The notes: generated by a model not told the origin, from the sequence alone. Counted from the first letter of the stretch, positions 12,599 through 21,387 are shown. The stretch: DNA of 53,297 nucleotides from Candidatus Thalassarchaeaceae archaeon (GCA_030751995.1 JASMFB010000003.1:1-53297), one strand, 5' to 3'. Made by a program: numbers and translations.

Positions 12599-13072
12599 AT
12601 GGCGAAGAAGAAGTCCTCGGGCGATGAGAAAGCAATAGAGAATCTACAAGCGGTACCAGGTGTCGGAAAATCAACAGCACAGAAGTTGGTCAATTCGGGC
12701 ATCCGAACGTCCAATCAATTGGCCAAAGCGAGCATGAAGAAACTTCTTGCTGCAGGTCTCTCATCTGGAATGGCTACGAAATTAGCCGCCGCTGCAGTCA
12801 AAAGTGCGGGCAAAAAAGCGGTCTCGAAAGCGAAGGCGGCTCCGAAGAAGGCCGCAACCAAAGCGAAGACGATTGCCATGTCTGCCAAGACTGCTGCTGC
12901 CAAGGGTAAGGCCAAAGCAAAGAAGGCCCTTCCTGCCAAGAAGAAGGCCCCAGCCAAGAAAAAGGCAGCCGTCAAAAAGAAGGATGCCAAGACAGTGGAA
13001 GTTCGAAGCAAGACCATCCCAACTCCGGATTGGAGAGCCCTAACAAAAAAGTGGAAGAAGAGCGATAATTAA
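12599..13072 (+). CDS. Helix-hairpin-helix protein with Lys/Ala-rich histone-H1-like tail
   Basis: MAKKKSSGDEKAIENLQAVPGVGKSTAQKLVNSGI (HhH) then ~90 aa of KAKAKKA/PAKKKAPAKKKAA repeats. Confidence 0.75.
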   Translation: MAKKKSSGDEKAIENLQAVPGVGKSTAQKLVNSGIRTSNQLAKASMKKLLAAGLSSGMATKLAAAAVKSAGKKAVSKAKAAPKKAATKAKTIAMSAKTAAAKGKAKAKKALPAKKKAPAKKKAAVKKKDAKTVEVRSKTIPTPDWRALTKKWKKSDN

Positions 13073-14157
13073 TCTTCAGATTCTTCGTCATTATCTTGAG
13101 CTCGACTTGCTGCTTGTGCACGATGGTAAATCTCTCGTAGGCTCTGGTCACTGATTTCAAGATAGACTCGAGTTGTTGAGATATTGGCGTGTCCGAGAAG
13201 CCGCTGAATACTGACAAGATCCATTCCTCGTTCTAGGAGTCCCGTAGCGAAATTGTGTCGCAGTGTATGGGGGCTCAATTTGGAACGTGGAATATCGGCC
13301 GCATCGGCCAATGAATCCATCAACTTCTGTACAGCCCGTGGAGTTAATCGTCTACCTCGTCGGTTCAGAATGAGTGCATCCCGATGTTCGTCTGAAGGCA
13401 CATGTCGGGAGACAATAATCTCTCGAATTTGCCCATAGGCTTCAATCGCAGCCACTGTTGCCTCAGTGAACAACACCAAACGATCCTTGTTTCCTTTGCC
13501 TTCACGTACCGTTGCAGAAAGATCTTCAAAATCCATTGAAGAACGATTGAGTGCACAAAGTTCGGAAACGCGAATTCCGGTATCAAGGAAGAGAGTGATG
13601 ACCACATTGGCAAATGGATTCTCGCTCGTAGCCGCTGCTTCCTTCAACCGTTCAATCTCTCGATGTGTCAGAGTTTTGGGCAAACTTCGCCCCTTTTGTG
13701 GACGGGTAACCCATTCAGGAATTCTATGTCCTACCCAATTCAACAGATGACTAACCGAAGCCAGTCTTGCATTGATTGTTGATGCCGCCAAATGAGAGAT
13801 CGATTGAACCCAAATGTCGAGGCGCCCATTGTTTGGGTCTACCCAACGTGCGAGTTCTTTGATTGGAATTCCCTGCAAAGCATCCCATGAAGGGGGCAAT
13901 TCACCAGGCAACACCGTCAACAGGAATTGTTTGGTTGCTGTTCGATAGGAACGAAGAGTGTGTGGACTTTTCTTTTCACTAATCATTTGCATTTCATAAC
14001 AGCCGTGCCAAGGCATTTCAGCCAACCTTACGAGTCTACTTGGGAGACTATAGGGCACGCCTAACGCTTCTTCTGAAAAAGGAGTCGCGAATTGACCATT
14101 TCTTGCTGGATCTGACCAGCCATTTTCTGTTGTTTCTCGTTGATTTTCATCCTGCAT
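13069..14157 (-). CDS. Tyrosine recombinase, XerC/XerD-like (XerA)
   Basis: LFLDTGIRVSELCALNRSSMD, SPHTLRHNFATGLLERGMDLVSIQRLLGHANISTTRVYLEI (R..HxxR..H..Y). Confidence 0.9.
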   Translation of the reverse strand: MQDENQRETTENGWSDPARNGQFATPFSEEALGVPYSLPSRLVRLAEMPWHGCYEMQMISEKKSPHTLRSYRTATKQFLLTVLPGELPPSWDALQGIPIKELARWVDPNNGRLDIWVQSISHLAASTINARLASVSHLLNWVGHRIPEWVTRPQKGRSLPKTLTHREIERLKEAAATSENPFANVVITLFLDTGIRVSELCALNRSSMDFEDLSATVREGKGNKDRLVLFTEATVAAIEAYGQIREIIVSRHVPSDEHRDALILNRRGRRLTPRAVQKLMDSLADAADIPRSKLSPHTLRHNFATGLLERGMDLVSIQRLLGHANISTTRVYLEISDQSLREIYHRAQAASRAQDNDEESED

Positions 14158-15683: not shown

Positions 15684-16910
15684 ATGGCGTCAGGTAGTCG
15701 ACGATTCATGCAGCCGGTCGCCGGACCCTCTGGTTCACCCGTCTCCGGACCCTCTGGGGCCCCTAGAGTAGCGGGGCCAAGCGGAGCTCCAGCGGGGCCA
15801 AGCGGTCCTCCAAAAGACGTCAATCCAGCACAATTTGACCCTCTTGCAGAGATTGAAGACGCCCGTGCTCGAAGACAAGATCGTGAAGAGCGCCTTGAGA
15901 CACTGGAGAAAAAGCGTAACAGTGCTCGTACCAACGTCTACCTCTTCCTAGCTATCACCGTTATTTTAGGAATATTCTCATTCTTCCCCGGGCCGATCCA
16001 TGGCGATGTCTCAGACAATCCACAGGCCCAAATGAGCCCGAACGAAGCCGAGGCTTGGGTTCGTGACGGTGGAGATAATGAATACCGTGACAAAATTTGG
16101 GATGGCTCAACCAATGCTAGTTCGGCACACATGAACATCTACATCCCTCCTCCGTTGCCTGATATGGGTTCAACCACTGCCGTCCGTGTCGATGTCACTT
16201 TCTTTTCATATCGCAATTCGGGCTCAACAGACTTCAAGGCCGGAATGTTCGATGGAGAATGTGGCGTTCTCCCAGCACACGAGTCTTTGCATGCGGATTC
16301 TTGGCACCTCAGTGAGGAAGACCTCGGTCCGGGTGAGAGCGTGGAATTCACTTTGTATACACAGCCAGGGAAGAAATGTATCCTAGTTGAATGGGTCGAG
16401 CCCGTAGCGAACCCTGGAACTCTCGCCACGATGGATGTGGAGGTTGCAATATATTGGCCGCGCATGTTCACGGTTCCAGTGGGCCTCATCACCTTCGTAA
16501 TGGCTGGTTTTGCCTTCATCGGAGCACAGAAAACGGGCAAGGTGTACAAGGGACTCAAGTACCCCGAAGGTCGCCCTGAAAAGAAAGTAGAAGAAGAGGT
16601 TCTAGAAGCCGCTGAAGCAGAACAGCGTGGAGATCAATTGGGCGTCCCTGAGGTTGAGACACCCGAAGATGCTGATGCTGTTGTTGTTGAGGGCCCATCC
16701 CTGGCTGAGGCTGCGGCAAGCCCTGAACAGGATGATTCAGCCCCTGTTTCTGAAGAACCGACGACAGAAGATTCGCCATTAGAAGCGGAACCATCGGCCG
16801 CAGAAGAAGAACCAGAAAAGGCCGAAAATACCGCGGCAGCATGGACCGATGAACAGTTGCTTGGTGCTGGGTGGTCGCAAGAACAGATTGATGCCATGCG
16901 AAATGGCTGA
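15684..16910 (+). CDS. Membrane protein with GPSG-repeat N-terminus, acidic C-terminal linker and C-terminal 'WTDEQLLGAGWSQEQIDAM' motif
   Basis: TM helices VYLFLAITVILGIFSFF and FTVPVGLITFVMAGFAFIG; repeat VAGPSGSPVSGPSGAPRVAGPSGAPAGPSGPP. Confidence 0.65.
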   Translation: MASGSRRFMQPVAGPSGSPVSGPSGAPRVAGPSGAPAGPSGPPKDVNPAQFDPLAEIEDARARRQDREERLETLEKKRNSARTNVYLFLAITVILGIFSFFPGPIHGDVSDNPQAQMSPNEAEAWVRDGGDNEYRDKIWDGSTNASSAHMNIYIPPPLPDMGSTTAVRVDVTFFSYRNSGSTDFKAGMFDGECGVLPAHESLHADSWHLSEEDLGPGESVEFTLYTQPGKKCILVEWVEPVANPGTLATMDVEVAIYWPRMFTVPVGLITFVMAGFAFIGAQKTGKVYKGLKYPEGRPEKKVEEEVLEAAEAEQRGDQLGVPEVETPEDADAVVVEGPSLAEAAASPEQDDSAPVSEEPTTEDSPLEAEPSAAEEEPEKAENTAAAWTDEQLLGAGWSQEQIDAMRNG

Positions 16911-16996: not shown

Positions 16997-19051
16997 ATGG
17001 ACGAAGACGAACTCTCCGCCATGACCGTTGTCAAACTGAAGGAACGACTCAAAGAACTGGGATTGCCAACCAGTGGGAAAAAGGCAAACCTCATTGCTCG
17101 ACTATTGGAATCAGATGCAGAAGAAGAAGCCGTCCTCATCCTAGATGATGATGAAGACGATTTCACACACACCTCAAAATTTGACTCTGACGAAATTATA
17201 GAAGCGGAAGTTTTTGAGGCTGAAATCCTCGAAGAGGAGGATGAATGGGATGCTGTGGAAACTCTTCCAAGTTCAATCAAAATGAGTCCTGCTCCATTGG
17301 CATCTCGTCCAGTATGGTACAAGGATGGAACGACAATAGCTACTCTTCTCGTAATCCTATTGCTGGCTGGAGCCGGGGGTTGGTGGTACTTCAATGAAGA
17401 TGCAGTCGCTTTCCAAACCGCCCAATCTCGCTATGGTGATAATCTTCAATTCACAGTTACCAATGGCTTGCTCTTGGCAGAAGGCGAAGACATGGTTGGA
17501 TACATTAGAGATGCTGCAGGAGGTGGCTTGGATCAAGTCTGTGGAAAACTTCAAATCGATTTTAGTGGAACTGGATCAGCCTCAATCACTGATGGTTCAC
17601 TAACCGATCTCAAAGATCCAGGTGACACATATCTAGAGGGTGCAGTCATGACCAATGGTGCCTATGGGCGAACATGGAATGCTGTCGAGTCGAATTTGGT
17701 CTATGACCTCAACGCCGATCTGGAGGGATACACATGGTCTGCTATCAATCAGGATTCTTGTAGCACAAATACGGTTTGGACAAAGAGAAACAATCAGTTA
17801 GACATCGAGATGACTCAATGGAATGAAATTACAGAACGAAAATTACTCCGTTCCGACACCACAGTTGGATTCGTCGATTCAGATGGCCAACTATCTAGTG
17901 CCACCACCACTACCTTTGGTGGCATTGTCGGTTCCGACACCGTTTCCAATTTGATTGAGGATGCTCTGTTGCCACTACATCCAGTAAATCTGTACGATAT
18001 CTTCCAATTGACAATCCTCACTGAAGGCCTCACAGGCGAATATGGGGATTGGGCATGGGAAGTTGGTTCCACTAGTACAATTGGCGGCCAGGATGCAATT
18101 CAAATTTTCATGCACCACATCGATATCGGTAAATGTCTCGGTCGAGCCGAGATGGCCTTGTGGGCAATTCCAGGGCAACCCTTGCCTGCTAGACAGGTCG
18201 TTGAGATGTCCATCGACAAATCGGGGACACACCCCGCCTGTTCTTTCGCAATGTCTGAGGCAATCGAACTTGCCTTTCCAGAGGGGACCTTCACAGCTCG
18301 ATACACGATTGAGCAAACCTCATTCAAGCAAGGAAGCGAGGATGTGAGATGGCAGCAAGGCTACGCAACCCGTCCACTTGCTGGTCAAGACGTTCCCTCG
18401 GATTGTCGGCAGAGCATACCCCACGATGATTGTGTGCCATGGGCCACCCATATGTGGGACAATTCCTCAACGCGACCATTCACTCTAGAGCAAGCGGTGA
18501 CTTGTGTGGCCACCGATAGTGATGCCTTTGGAGCAGCCCACACCGCCCTCAATAGCGATGGGTACGTCTTTTCTGCGTTGGACGATCGTACAGGAAATTC
18601 TCCGGTGTGGAATCTTTCATGGGTCAGTTCCGTTGAAGCCGGTTGGGTCCGAGTAACATGGCCAGGTGGCGAGAATTGCTTGAATTCAGGGGATGGCCCA
18701 ATCAGTGGCGATGACAAACCCGAACATGCACGAGATCGAATTCCAACCACTCATAGAATCGCCGCACTAGAGAGCCGCATGATTTCATCCACATTGTATC
18801 CTGATCTGTATCCTCAAGTTACGACATCCGGGGTTCTTCGCGATGATGTACAGATTGGATACGCATTGGTTGTTCCAGAGGATAACGCTGTTTCAGAATG
18901 GTTGGATGAAATCGACTTCTTCGAGGGCCAAGTCACAGTTTATCTTGAACGCACTTGGACCTCAGGAGATACAGATCATAGCCTTCGAGTTGGAATGGAT
19001 GGAAAGACTGGGCGTATGGTGGGGTGGGCTCAAACTTCGACACCGTCCTAA
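16997..19051 (+). CDS. SAP-domain protein with one TM helix and large extracytoplasmic domain
   Basis: N-term ELSAMTVVKLKERLKELGLPTSGKKANLIARLLE (SAP), acidic linker, TM GTTIATLLVILLLAGAGGWWYF, then ~550-aa ectodomain. Confidence 0.75.
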   Translation: MDEDELSAMTVVKLKERLKELGLPTSGKKANLIARLLESDAEEEAVLILDDDEDDFTHTSKFDSDEIIEAEVFEAEILEEEDEWDAVETLPSSIKMSPAPLASRPVWYKDGTTIATLLVILLLAGAGGWWYFNEDAVAFQTAQSRYGDNLQFTVTNGLLLAEGEDMVGYIRDAAGGGLDQVCGKLQIDFSGTGSASITDGSLTDLKDPGDTYLEGAVMTNGAYGRTWNAVESNLVYDLNADLEGYTWSAINQDSCSTNTVWTKRNNQLDIEMTQWNEITERKLLRSDTTVGFVDSDGQLSSATTTTFGGIVGSDTVSNLIEDALLPLHPVNLYDIFQLTILTEGLTGEYGDWAWEVGSTSTIGGQDAIQIFMHHIDIGKCLGRAEMALWAIPGQPLPARQVVEMSIDKSGTHPACSFAMSEAIELAFPEGTFTARYTIEQTSFKQGSEDVRWQQGYATRPLAGQDVPSDCRQSIPHDDCVPWATHMWDNSSTRPFTLEQAVTCVATDSDAFGAAHTALNSDGYVFSALDDRTGNSPVWNLSWVSSVEAGWVRVTWPGGENCLNSGDGPISGDDKPEHARDRIPTTHRIAALESRMISSTLYPDLYPQVTTSGVLRDDVQIGYALVVPEDNAVSEWLDEIDFFEGQVTVYLERTWTSGDTDHSLRVGMDGKTGRMVGWAQTSTPS

Positions 19052-19122
19052 TGTTTGAAAAAACCCCATTTCAGGCTTAATTTGTCCCGTCACCCTCAAG
19101 AGCGCAGCAAGAGCGGAAGCAA

Positions 19123-20064
19123 TTGGGATGCATCATGGATGAGGAAGATGTGCTGCCCGAGGCGGTAGCCGCGCCCTTGGTGGTCGAATTCACTGAGGAG
19201 GAAATAGAAGGTCCCGTATCTGACCCATTGAGTTCTGCCGAACCCCGTCCTGAAATTGAACTCCCAAGAGGGAGACCGACTCCTGCGAATCGCGGGCGTG
19301 TCGTCACTGTCATGAATCAGAAAGGTGGTGTCGGAAAGACGACCACAGTCATCAATGTCGCAACACATCTCGCTATGCATGGCGTCCGAGTCCTTGTGGT
19401 CGATTGCGACCAACAAGGAAATTGTGCTACGGGCCTTGGAATCGACAAGAGTCGTGTCAAGCATACGACTCGTACTCTATTCACTGACCCAGAACAGGCT
19501 CCTGCCTGTCGACATGCTACCGCAGTCCCCGGCCTTCACCTAATCGTGGGCGAGCGCTCATTGGTTGGACTTGAGCAAGAACTCTCCACCCGACTCGGTC
19601 GTGAGCGTTGTCTATCTGAAGGTCTTGAGTCACTGTTGCCACACTACGATCTCATCCTACTCGACACCGCGCCCAGTCTGGGATTGGTAACCATCAACGC
19701 CCTAGTTGCCAGTGATGGCGTATTAGTCCCTGTACAAACTGAATTCTTCGCATTGGAAGGCGTTGCCATGTTATCTTCGACCATTCGAGAGGTCCGCCGT
19801 CGCCTCAATCCGGAACTTGGTTTTGATGGTGTCATGATGACAATGCATGCTCCAACCTTGTTGAATGGTCAGGTGCAGGGACAGTTGAAGGAAACATTCA
19901 ACGATTTGATTGTTGAACCACCGATTCGTCGTAATATCAAACTCGCTGAAGCTCCAAGTGAAGGCATTCCTATACATATCCACGCACCGGAATCAAAAGG
20001 TGGGAAGGATTATCGCGAACTTGCGGTTAATCTTGCTCAGCGGTGGAATCTCACCTTGGAGTGA
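19123..20064 (+). CDS. parA: ParA/Soj-family ATPase with acidic N-terminal extension (start may be 19135)
   Basis: VVTVMNQKGGVGKTTTVINVATHLA, VLVVDCDQQGN, LILLDTAPSLGLVTINAL. Confidence 0.92.
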   Translation: MGCIMDEEDVLPEAVAAPLVVEFTEEEIEGPVSDPLSSAEPRPEIELPRGRPTPANRGRVVTVMNQKGGVGKTTTVINVATHLAMHGVRVLVVDCDQQGNCATGLGIDKSRVKHTTRTLFTDPEQAPACRHATAVPGLHLIVGERSLVGLEQELSTRLGRERCLSEGLESLLPHYDLILLDTAPSLGLVTINALVASDGVLVPVQTEFFALEGVAMLSSTIREVRRRLNPELGFDGVMMTMHAPTLLNGQVQGQLKETFNDLIVEPPIRRNIKLAEAPSEGIPIHIHAPESKGGKDYRELAVNLAQRWNLTLE

Positions 20065-20069
20065 ATCTA

Positions 20070-20483
20070 ATGACCAAAAAGCGCGTTTTGGGCCGGGGCC
20101 TCGATGATTTGCTGGCCCAACACGATCAGGATTTACCATTCCTAGATGCCTACGGTCCCTCGATTGGCGATTCCGAAGGTTTACCGACAGGTACCGGGGC
20201 GGACCCTGTTGAACAGTTGATGGAAGCCATCACGCGCCTCTTGCAGGCCGAAGGCCACCAAAATTCCGAATTGATTACACGTGAAGCGAAGGAAAATGGC
20301 GTTCAAATTATTGTACAGAGTGGCGGGGAGAAATTACCACTTGTCCCCTCCGATTTGGGTGCACCTGGATTTGAAGAAGGGATTTTGGCCACAGATAGAA
20401 GCGAAGCCTCTGTCACCATTGTCCAGTGGGGTATCCCAGCTCGTCGCCTACTCGAACGTCTTTGTGAACATTGGTCTGGGTGA
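20070..20483 (+). CDS. ParB-like mini-protein: N-terminal ParA-interaction box only
   Basis: MTKKRVLGRGLDDLLAQ resembles the ParB N-terminus (K..LGRGLxALL). 5 bp downstream of parA. No GxRR, ENxxR or HTH motif seen. Confidence 0.6.
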   Translation: MTKKRVLGRGLDDLLAQHDQDLPFLDAYGPSIGDSEGLPTGTGADPVEQLMEAITRLLQAEGHQNSELITREAKENGVQIIVQSGGEKLPLVPSDLGAPGFEEGILATDRSEASVTIVQWGIPARRLLERLCEHWSG

Positions 20484-20487
20484 TTAT

Positions 20488-21387
20488 TTGAGCATCCGTA
20501 GTGCGCTGGTGTCTACCTTCGTTCTTCGACCGAACAAGACCATCTACCGGTTGTTACGTCCATCTCCACTCTTGGCTCGTTTTTTTGTTCATCCACAAAC
20601 ATGGTTTGCGGGGAAGTTGTTCAGTCCGTTCGGAGTCCGCACAGAGAATACTCATTTTGGAGATGTACCGAGTGTTACCTTCACTCCGAAGAAGAACGTA
20701 CGATCAAACACCATCTTCGTGTTTCTACATGGTGGAGGCTACTGCATTGGTTCATCACGCACAACACATCGAATTGGGTTGGCAAATCTAGCCAAGACGA
20801 CCTCCTGTGTCTGTCATTCCATCGACTATCGCTTGGCCCCCGCGGACCCATATCCTGCTGCCTTGGAGGATGCAGCGAAAGCGTGGCAGGAAATCGTTGC
20901 TGAAAATCCAGATTCACAAATAATCCTCAGTGGAGATTCCGCAGGTGGTGGCCTCAGTCTTGCGTTAATGATGCATCTACGCGATGAAGGGTCACGGCTA
21001 CCTGATGCAGCCGTTTTATTCTCACCTTGGACTGACCTAACATGTAGTTCACCGACATACAAGACGTTGGCAAAAGCGGATCCAATGCTGGCTCGTGTCA
21101 TTCCCGATGATTGTGCTGGCCATTACGTCCCTGAATCTGTTAATCGTAAAGACCCATACATCTCTCCAATGTTTGGTGATTTCACCGGCCTGCCAAGAAC
21201 GCTCATTCTCGTCGGCGACCGAGAAGTCCTTCTGGATGATAGCCGAAAGGTTGGAGAGAAAGCCAAGAACGCTGGTGTAGACATAGAAGTCGACATCTGG
21301 CCGGGGATGTTTCACGATTGGTGGTTGTTCGGCCAATCCGTCCCTGAATCCAAGCAATGCCTTCGTAAGGTTGCTGAGTGGATTTAG
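20488..21387 (+). CDS. Alpha/beta-hydrolase, HSL-type esterase (probable TTG start)
   Basis: FVFLHGGGYCIGSS oxyanion motif, LSGDSAGGGLSLAL nucleophile elbow, GMFHDWW catalytic His. Confidence 0.85.
   Translation: MSIRSALVSTFVLRPNKTIYRLLRPSPLLARFFVHPQTWFAGKLFSPFGVRTENTHFGDVPSVTFTPKKNVRSNTIFVFLHGGGYCIGSSRTTHRIGLANLAKTTSCVCHSIDYRLAPADPYPAALEDAAKAWQEIVAENPDSQIILSGDSAGGGLSLALMMHLRDEGSRLPDAAVLFSPWTDLTCSSPTYKTLAKADPMLARVIPDDCAGHYVPESVNRKDPYISPMFGDFTGLPRTLILVGDREVLLDDSRKVGEKAKNAGVDIEVDIWPGMFHDWWLFGQSVPESKQCLRKVAEWI

Follow-up and report, generated by a model that had tools for sequence, protein, structure and literature searches.

A candidate ParA-activating peptide apart from ParB at a conserved locus of Poseidoniales archaea

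Organisation of the locus

The window, meaning the whole 53,297-nucleotide stretch of DNA analysed here, comes from a 71%-complete MAG of the Thalassarchaeaceae (Marine Group IIb). Three genes follow one another on its plus strand. The first (16997..19051) encodes a 684-aa protein with a SAP domain and a transmembrane helix, hereafter SAP-TM, which was recognised by Pfam (SAP, PF02037, E 2e-12) and an AF2 model and has orthologs throughout the order. The second (19135..20064) encodes a 309-aa ParA/Soj-type Walker ATPase (AAA_31, 8e-52), and the third (20070..20483) a small protein of 137 aa, not the 138 aa first reported. The co-directional arrangement described in the initial annotation was borne out and is conserved in relatives. 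Its 5-bp gap between the second and third genes also stands; the 71-bp gap ahead of ParA is obtained only from an alternative TTG at 19123, and measures 83 bp from the ATG at 19135 that is conserved in orthologs. Relatives are referred to below by family (f1, the family of the window; f2, its sister family) and by number for the anonymous genera (g) of the order Poseidoniales.

SAP-TM consists of a SAP domain (residues 1-41), a disordered acidic linker (43-111), one transmembrane helix (111-133) and a beta-rich C-terminal domain of ~550 aa, as delimited by Pfam and the AF2 model. From its family, the SAP domain is presumed to be cytosolic and DNA-binding. The linker (window 17000-17330) contains a repeated acidic motif, EAEVFEAEIL, which is conserved in most orthologs and is possibly a docking site. 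A LolA/ApoB/DUF1849-like half-barrel was considered for SAP-TM, and was set aside as its Foldseek matches were weak and untrusted. SAP-TM has counterparts in 292 of 293 Poseidoniales genomes; SAP-TM is therefore not dedicated to ParA.

Most of the order shares a block comprising a Xer-type recombinase, a RimK-like ATP-grasp protein, in some cases a membrane protein, SAP-TM, ParA and its partner. The membrane protein upstream of SAP-TM (15684..16910, plus strand; cluster c11), identified by synteny, belongs to the conserved block in several of the genera that encode the free small protein behind ParA and in ParA-less f2 genera. The Xer-type tyrosine recombinase (13069..14157, minus strand; PF00589, 3e-38) is likewise syntenic, lying ~5 kb upstream of the ParA locus in most loci and genera, and it may resolve chromosome dimers in these archaea. 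Proximity of the locus to a replication origin was considered and rejected: in the single-contig genome G148, which has two Orc1/Cdc6 genes, the nearer is 186 kb away.

A ParB-type motif at the N-terminus of the small protein

The small protein, encoded directly behind ParA in the window, begins MTKKRVLGRGLDDLLAQ. Its N-terminus, MTKKRVLGRGL, is a short, positively charged, disordered extension, and residues 7-15, LGRGLDDLL, fit the published ParA-binding motif of ParB, (L/F/I)G(K/R)G(L/F/I) (PMC12704722), together with the hydrophobic residues that follow it. In Myxococcus ParB, where L11, R13, L15, L18 and I19 have been tested experimentally, the hydrophobic residues are required for ParA binding and R13 for ATPase stimulation (PMC12462528). 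The counterparts of these five in the small protein are L7, R9, L11, L14 and L15. The match to the ParB N-terminal motif proposed in the initial annotation thus holds residue for residue across the ParA-binding-type box (residues 6-15, V-LGRGLDDLL, 20085..20114, plus strand), including the four hydrophobic positions and the arginine. A second motif of the disordered N-terminus, DLPFLDAYG (20130..20156, plus strand), consists of invariant alignment columns and is retained also in lineages without ParA.

Among the 246 window ORFs of at least 60 aa, the small protein has the sole N-terminal (L/F/I)G(K/R)G(L/F/I). In 1.15 Mb of related loci, four of 115 such N-termini fell outside the box family, and two of these four were a single true bacterial ParB present in two overlapping loci. 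By these counts the box is above chance expectation. A profile of the box gave 85 matches at E<1e-3 in 148 f1 genomes, the box being present in 84 of them (E 4e-15 in the window's own genome), and every match that could be compared with ParA coordinates adjoined ParA on its downstream side. The profile detected no second copy elsewhere in the 148 genomes, including those that have lost the box. Searches of plasmids and the PDB with residues 1-25 returned no matches, the peptide being too short for these to be informative.

The small protein lacks a ParB fold

Beyond the box, the small protein did not behave as the ParB reduced to its N-terminus that had been suggested, although the absence of ParB motifs after the box was confirmed. 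Residues 1-44 are disordered and residues 45-137 form an ordered alpha/beta domain; the AlphaFold2 model of 20070-20483 assigned this domain high confidence, with the order alpha-beta-beta-alpha-beta-beta-alpha and no HTH, and gave low pLDDT for most of residues 1-40. An alignment of 26 orthologs showed a conserved body, LPLVPSDL..PG...G.L..DR..A.V...W....RR...R..EH. This ~90-residue domain is unlike ParB, and the protein is common without ParA, behind SAP-TM. Pfam and NCBIfam gave zero matches to the small protein even at E<=10, ParB_N/Srx included, Foldseek found nothing among PDB folds at E<0.06, and a profile sequence search of the PDB gave chance-level matches only. The top Foldseek matches, the C-terminal domain of T4 MotA and SycT-type chaperones, were not significant and were rejected. 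Because it has its own ordered domain and lies behind SAP-TM where ParA is missing, the small protein looks like a SAP-TM partner carrying the box, not an eroded ParB.

The expectation that the genome would lack a canonical ParB with parS sites was also upheld. A search of 293 genomes of the order with ParB_N (PF02195) yielded one strong match, on contig G135:C42 (locus L157); the remaining matches were short and near threshold. Gene names on this contig were read from translations, and its trmE-, gidA-, parA- and bactofilin-like neighbours mark it as bacterial contamination, so its ParB was not accepted as archaeal. Such a contig inside an archaeal MAG would yield a false archaeal ParAB. The parS sequence TGTTTCACGTGAAACA had 0 sites at <=2 mismatches in the window's own genome, and scattered single sites elsewhere were not in excess.

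ParA and its putative peptide pocket

The ATPase is of plain Soj type. Its closest solved structures are Thermus Soj (1wcv, E 7e-52) and ParA (8ray, E 3e-49), and it carries a deviant Walker A, KGGVGKTT, a Walker B and the chromosomal-type segment RNIKLAEAPS. An apparent recoding of one TGA in the ParA of g5 and g11 proved to be merely the natural stop, 1-2 residues before the aligned end.

Residues of the dimer-interface peptide pocket of Myxococcus ParA were transferred to the window ParA through the 8ray alignment. L150, G151, L152, L192 and E117 (Myxococcus numbering) are kept and L155 is isoleucine, the counterparts in window numbering being L182-G183-L184..I187, L224 and E149. V116 is replaced by Q, L187 by E and the invariant Y81 by R; E at the L187 position also occurs in Thermus Soj. 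Because the pocket is thus partly kept and partly replaced, docking of the box there is plausible but not certain. With regard to nonspecific DNA binding, K or R stands at the position corresponding to R238. Window residue L184 was leucine in 30 of 30 fusion loci that keep the box (see below) and isoleucine in 18 of 25 box-less ones; since isoleucine also occurs with intact boxes, co-variation of the pocket with box loss was not adopted and this pattern is suggestive only.

Transfer of the box to an EamA transporter

To compare relatives, the ORF directly behind ParA was read in 98 loci, which fell into three states. In state A (43 loci; g1, g2, g4 and g9 of f1, and g16, g17, g19 and g21 of f2) ParA is followed by the free small protein. 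In state B (30 loci; g6, g7, g11, part of g5 and one g10) the sequence GLGRGL...PDLSSF is fused in-frame to an EamA transporter, and in state C (25 loci; g3, g8, part of g5 and part of g10) the same transporter lacks the box. Genome G022, labelled g4, carries the locus in two versions on contigs C9 and C41, and because one of them is nearly identical to the g1 locus, this genome is likely a mixed bin. ParA lies between SAP-TM and the small protein in 4 of 11 f1 genera and 4 of 11 f2 genera, and the small protein is missing from the seven-genus f1 clade of states B and C. The proposed co-occurrence of the three genes therefore applies in part: SAP-TM, ParA and the box are found together in all state A genera, and many other genera are without ParA or without the small protein.

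The fusions, found in 30 genomes of 5 genera (loci L081, L082, L086, L088, L089 and 25 others), start a few bases from the ParA stop and carry a tag of ~25-27 N-terminal residues that includes the box; the EamA domain of the L081 protein matched PF00892 at E 9e-20. In a ParA tree, every state B and C row fell in a single clade (SH-aLRT 96) nested among state A, and 4 changes in total account for the three states. Since states B and C form one nested clade and so few changes are needed, the simplest history is that the peptide passed to the transporter once and was lost several times afterwards.

The box in lineages without ParA

The small protein is spread across the order Poseidoniales and is present throughout the f2 genera. 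Its gene directly follows that of SAP-TM in g13, g14, g15 and g20, as it does in the g12 and g22 loci with a SAP-TM match on the stretch. No ParA was found in 29 stretches from these ParA-less genera (g12-g15, g20, g22). Where ParA is missing, most boxes have decayed at their first residues (DERGLDHLM, IPRGLDHLM, SNRDLDHLI, KLSKGFEDLF), and RGLDxL and DLxFLxxYG are mostly retained. The strict motif occurred in 35 of 43 small proteins beside ParA versus 8 of 29 without, as raw counts uncorrected for kinship; conservation of the box among orthologs, which the initial annotation had anticipated, thus extends to most sequences beside ParA, the other 8 of the 43 departing from the strict form. An intact KLGRGLD(D/E)LL persists in all five g22 genomes, and LGRGL or IGRGL in three of the eight g12 genomes sampled, without a ParA ortholog there. 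The box is therefore not strictly tied to the adjacent ParA, and a reading of strict co-evolution of the two was abandoned in view of g22. In g22 and g12 it may be kept either for another partner, for example the second ParA paralog described below, or for an additional role.

A reading that would accommodate these lineages sees in the N-terminus an ancestral motif, RGLDxL(M/I/L)xQNxxxLxFLxxYG, that belongs to the SAP-TM partner and has a different role such as SAP-TM binding; its likeness to ParB would then be coincidental, and ParA would merely share the operon. The RGLDHLMEQN..ELxFL of ParA-less lineages, the LGRGL that g22 retains even without ParA and the partial conservation of the ParA pocket are all consistent with it. 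We nevertheless regard it as somewhat unlikely, given the difference in strict-motif counts with and without ParA, the fact that what moved to a transporter directly behind ParA was no more than the N-terminal ~27 residues with the box, and the lack of any further box-like N-terminus in f1.

In 27 of 30 fusions the tag keeps LGRGL unchanged at the amino-acid level despite the use of up to 6 synonymous codons (pN/pS 0.08-0.29), and PDLSSF is likewise retained. Fixed residues amid synonymous variation indicate that the tag is under protein-level selection. The last hydrophobic position of the box is mostly A, Y, S or T in the fusions, and the box has been lost in 25 of 55 transporter-clade genomes that retain ParA, so it is dispensable in this clade. 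The repeated loss (g3, g8, part of g5 and part of g10), with transporter and ParA staying in place, is what would be expected if the tag were a functionless leftover of the gene fusion that is now disappearing; the retention of both the box and PDLSSF at such high synonymous divergence makes this improbable.

The second ParA paralog

Both families also encode a ParA paralog with the Walker A sequence KGGCAKTT (L156, 4694-5650, and L186-L195). It sits in an NDK-IF2-MoxR cluster, 18-35 kb from the locus of the adjacent ParA, and no box protein was found beside it. In the 12 paralogs whose pocket was read, L150, G151 and L152 are kept, V116 and L155 are isoleucine in 12 of 12 and L192 is I or V; L187 is L or M in 10 of 12, E117 is E in 11 of 12 and Y81 is Y in 7 of 12. 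Judged by these residues, the paralog's pocket is nearer to the bacterial type than that of the adjacent ParA.

It is conceivable that the box acts on this paralog instead of, or besides, the adjacent ParA. The bacterial-type pocket is compatible with this, the paralog is present also where the adjacent ParA is missing, and such an interaction could account for the intact box of g22. The paralog is, however, distant from the small protein, the box follows the adjacent ParA in f1, and the box is eroded in most lineages that have the paralog only, all of which render this very unlikely as the explanation. Least probable of all is a true ParB from which the CTPase, HTH and dimerisation domains have been stripped, SAP-TM serving as the DNA anchor: a ParB-like N-terminus does adjoin a Soj-type ParA, but the conserved ordered domain of the small protein matches neither ParB/Srx nor an HTH, and the family of this protein occurs without ParA across f2.

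A model for ParA activation without ParB

Taken together, the motif, the pocket and the synteny point to a ParB-independent ParA module, which we consider the probable explanation: its partner would be a small archaeal protein and not a parS clamp, and the box would activate ParA. As in its family, ParA (19135-20064) would bind the nucleoid as an ATP dimer. Its partner would be the small protein, whose gene accompanies that of the membrane-anchored SAP-domain protein. From the motif and the pocket, the LGRGLDDLL N-terminus of the small protein is predicted to dock where ParB peptides bind ParA and to stimulate ATP hydrolysis. Widespread adjacency suggests that the small protein binds SAP-TM; if it does, a tether between nucleoid and membrane would be linked to the cycling of ParA, and this coupling might serve chromosome segregation or nucleoid positioning, or might position a membrane complex. 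In the seven sister genera, the peptide was transferred once to the EamA transporter, which would put the activator on a membrane protein itself, and was later lost several times. We suggest more tentatively that this may be an archaeal chromosomal ParA system without ParB or parS, in which a 25-residue activating peptide of ParB type is a free module, carried by the SAP-TM partner in some genera and by the multi-pass EamA transporter in others, and serves nucleoid-membrane positioning, not a centromere.

Relation to known systems

The locus resembles bacterial ParABS (Soj/Spo0J) in its Soj-type ParA and in the LGRGLxxLL N-terminal box on the product of the next gene. It differs in having no ParB-CTPase fold, HTH, dimerisation domain or parS, and in that the box is carried by an unrelated small protein or a transporter. 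In archaeal SegAB(C) and in AspA-ParB-ParA of plasmid pNOB8, the partners of ParA are sequence-specific DNA-binding proteins. The present locus shares with them an archaeal ParA-type ATPase and a partner in one operon, whereas here SAP-TM is accompanied by a box protein without a recognised DNA-binding domain.

In PomX, a short basic N-terminal peptide on an unrelated carrier activates a ParA/MinD ATPase, and the same has been suggested for TlpT and McdB (PMC7993993). PomX/PomZ and the proposed TlpT/PpfA and McdB/McdA pairs share with our system a short basic disordered N-terminal peptide, an unrelated carrier and a ParA-type ATPase, and such non-ParB activators would be its nearest functional analogues. 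The present case is set apart by a peptide of precisely the ParB LGRGL type, by an archaeal host and by the presence of this one peptide on two unrelated carriers in sister genera. PadC of Myxococcus is ParB-like and brings ParA to bactofilin (PMC12704722). It is similar in that a ParA-binding motif directs ParA to a scaffold and not to parS, an activity predicted here from the motif; PadC retains the ParB-CTPase fold, whereas the small protein is without it.

Archaea are generally thought to be without chromosomal ParABS (PMC12704722). A search of the open-access literature, with subscription papers and preprints outside its scope, returned nothing on ParA or ParB of Poseidoniales or Marine Group II, or on an archaeal SAP domain together with ParA. 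The novel point would be not a shrunken ParB but a ParB-type activating peptide shared by two unrelated carriers, each encoded behind the same archaeal ParA, and the sequences suggest that this peptide is a module moved between unrelated carriers. If the box works as proposed, abundant ocean archaea have a ParA activator peptide that is uncoupled from ParB and parS and movable between proteins, and they would serve as a natural experiment on which portion of ParB is required while offering a first mechanistic lead on a nucleoid-membrane tie in Poseidoniales. Surveys for the ParB-CTPase fold alone would then overlook such systems.

A further ORF lies behind the box protein in genus g1 only. The longest-start rule places it at 20281-21387, in overlap with the small protein. 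The part that matches the hormone-sensitive-lipase type sets in only around residue 118, and hence the true start probably lies behind 20483.
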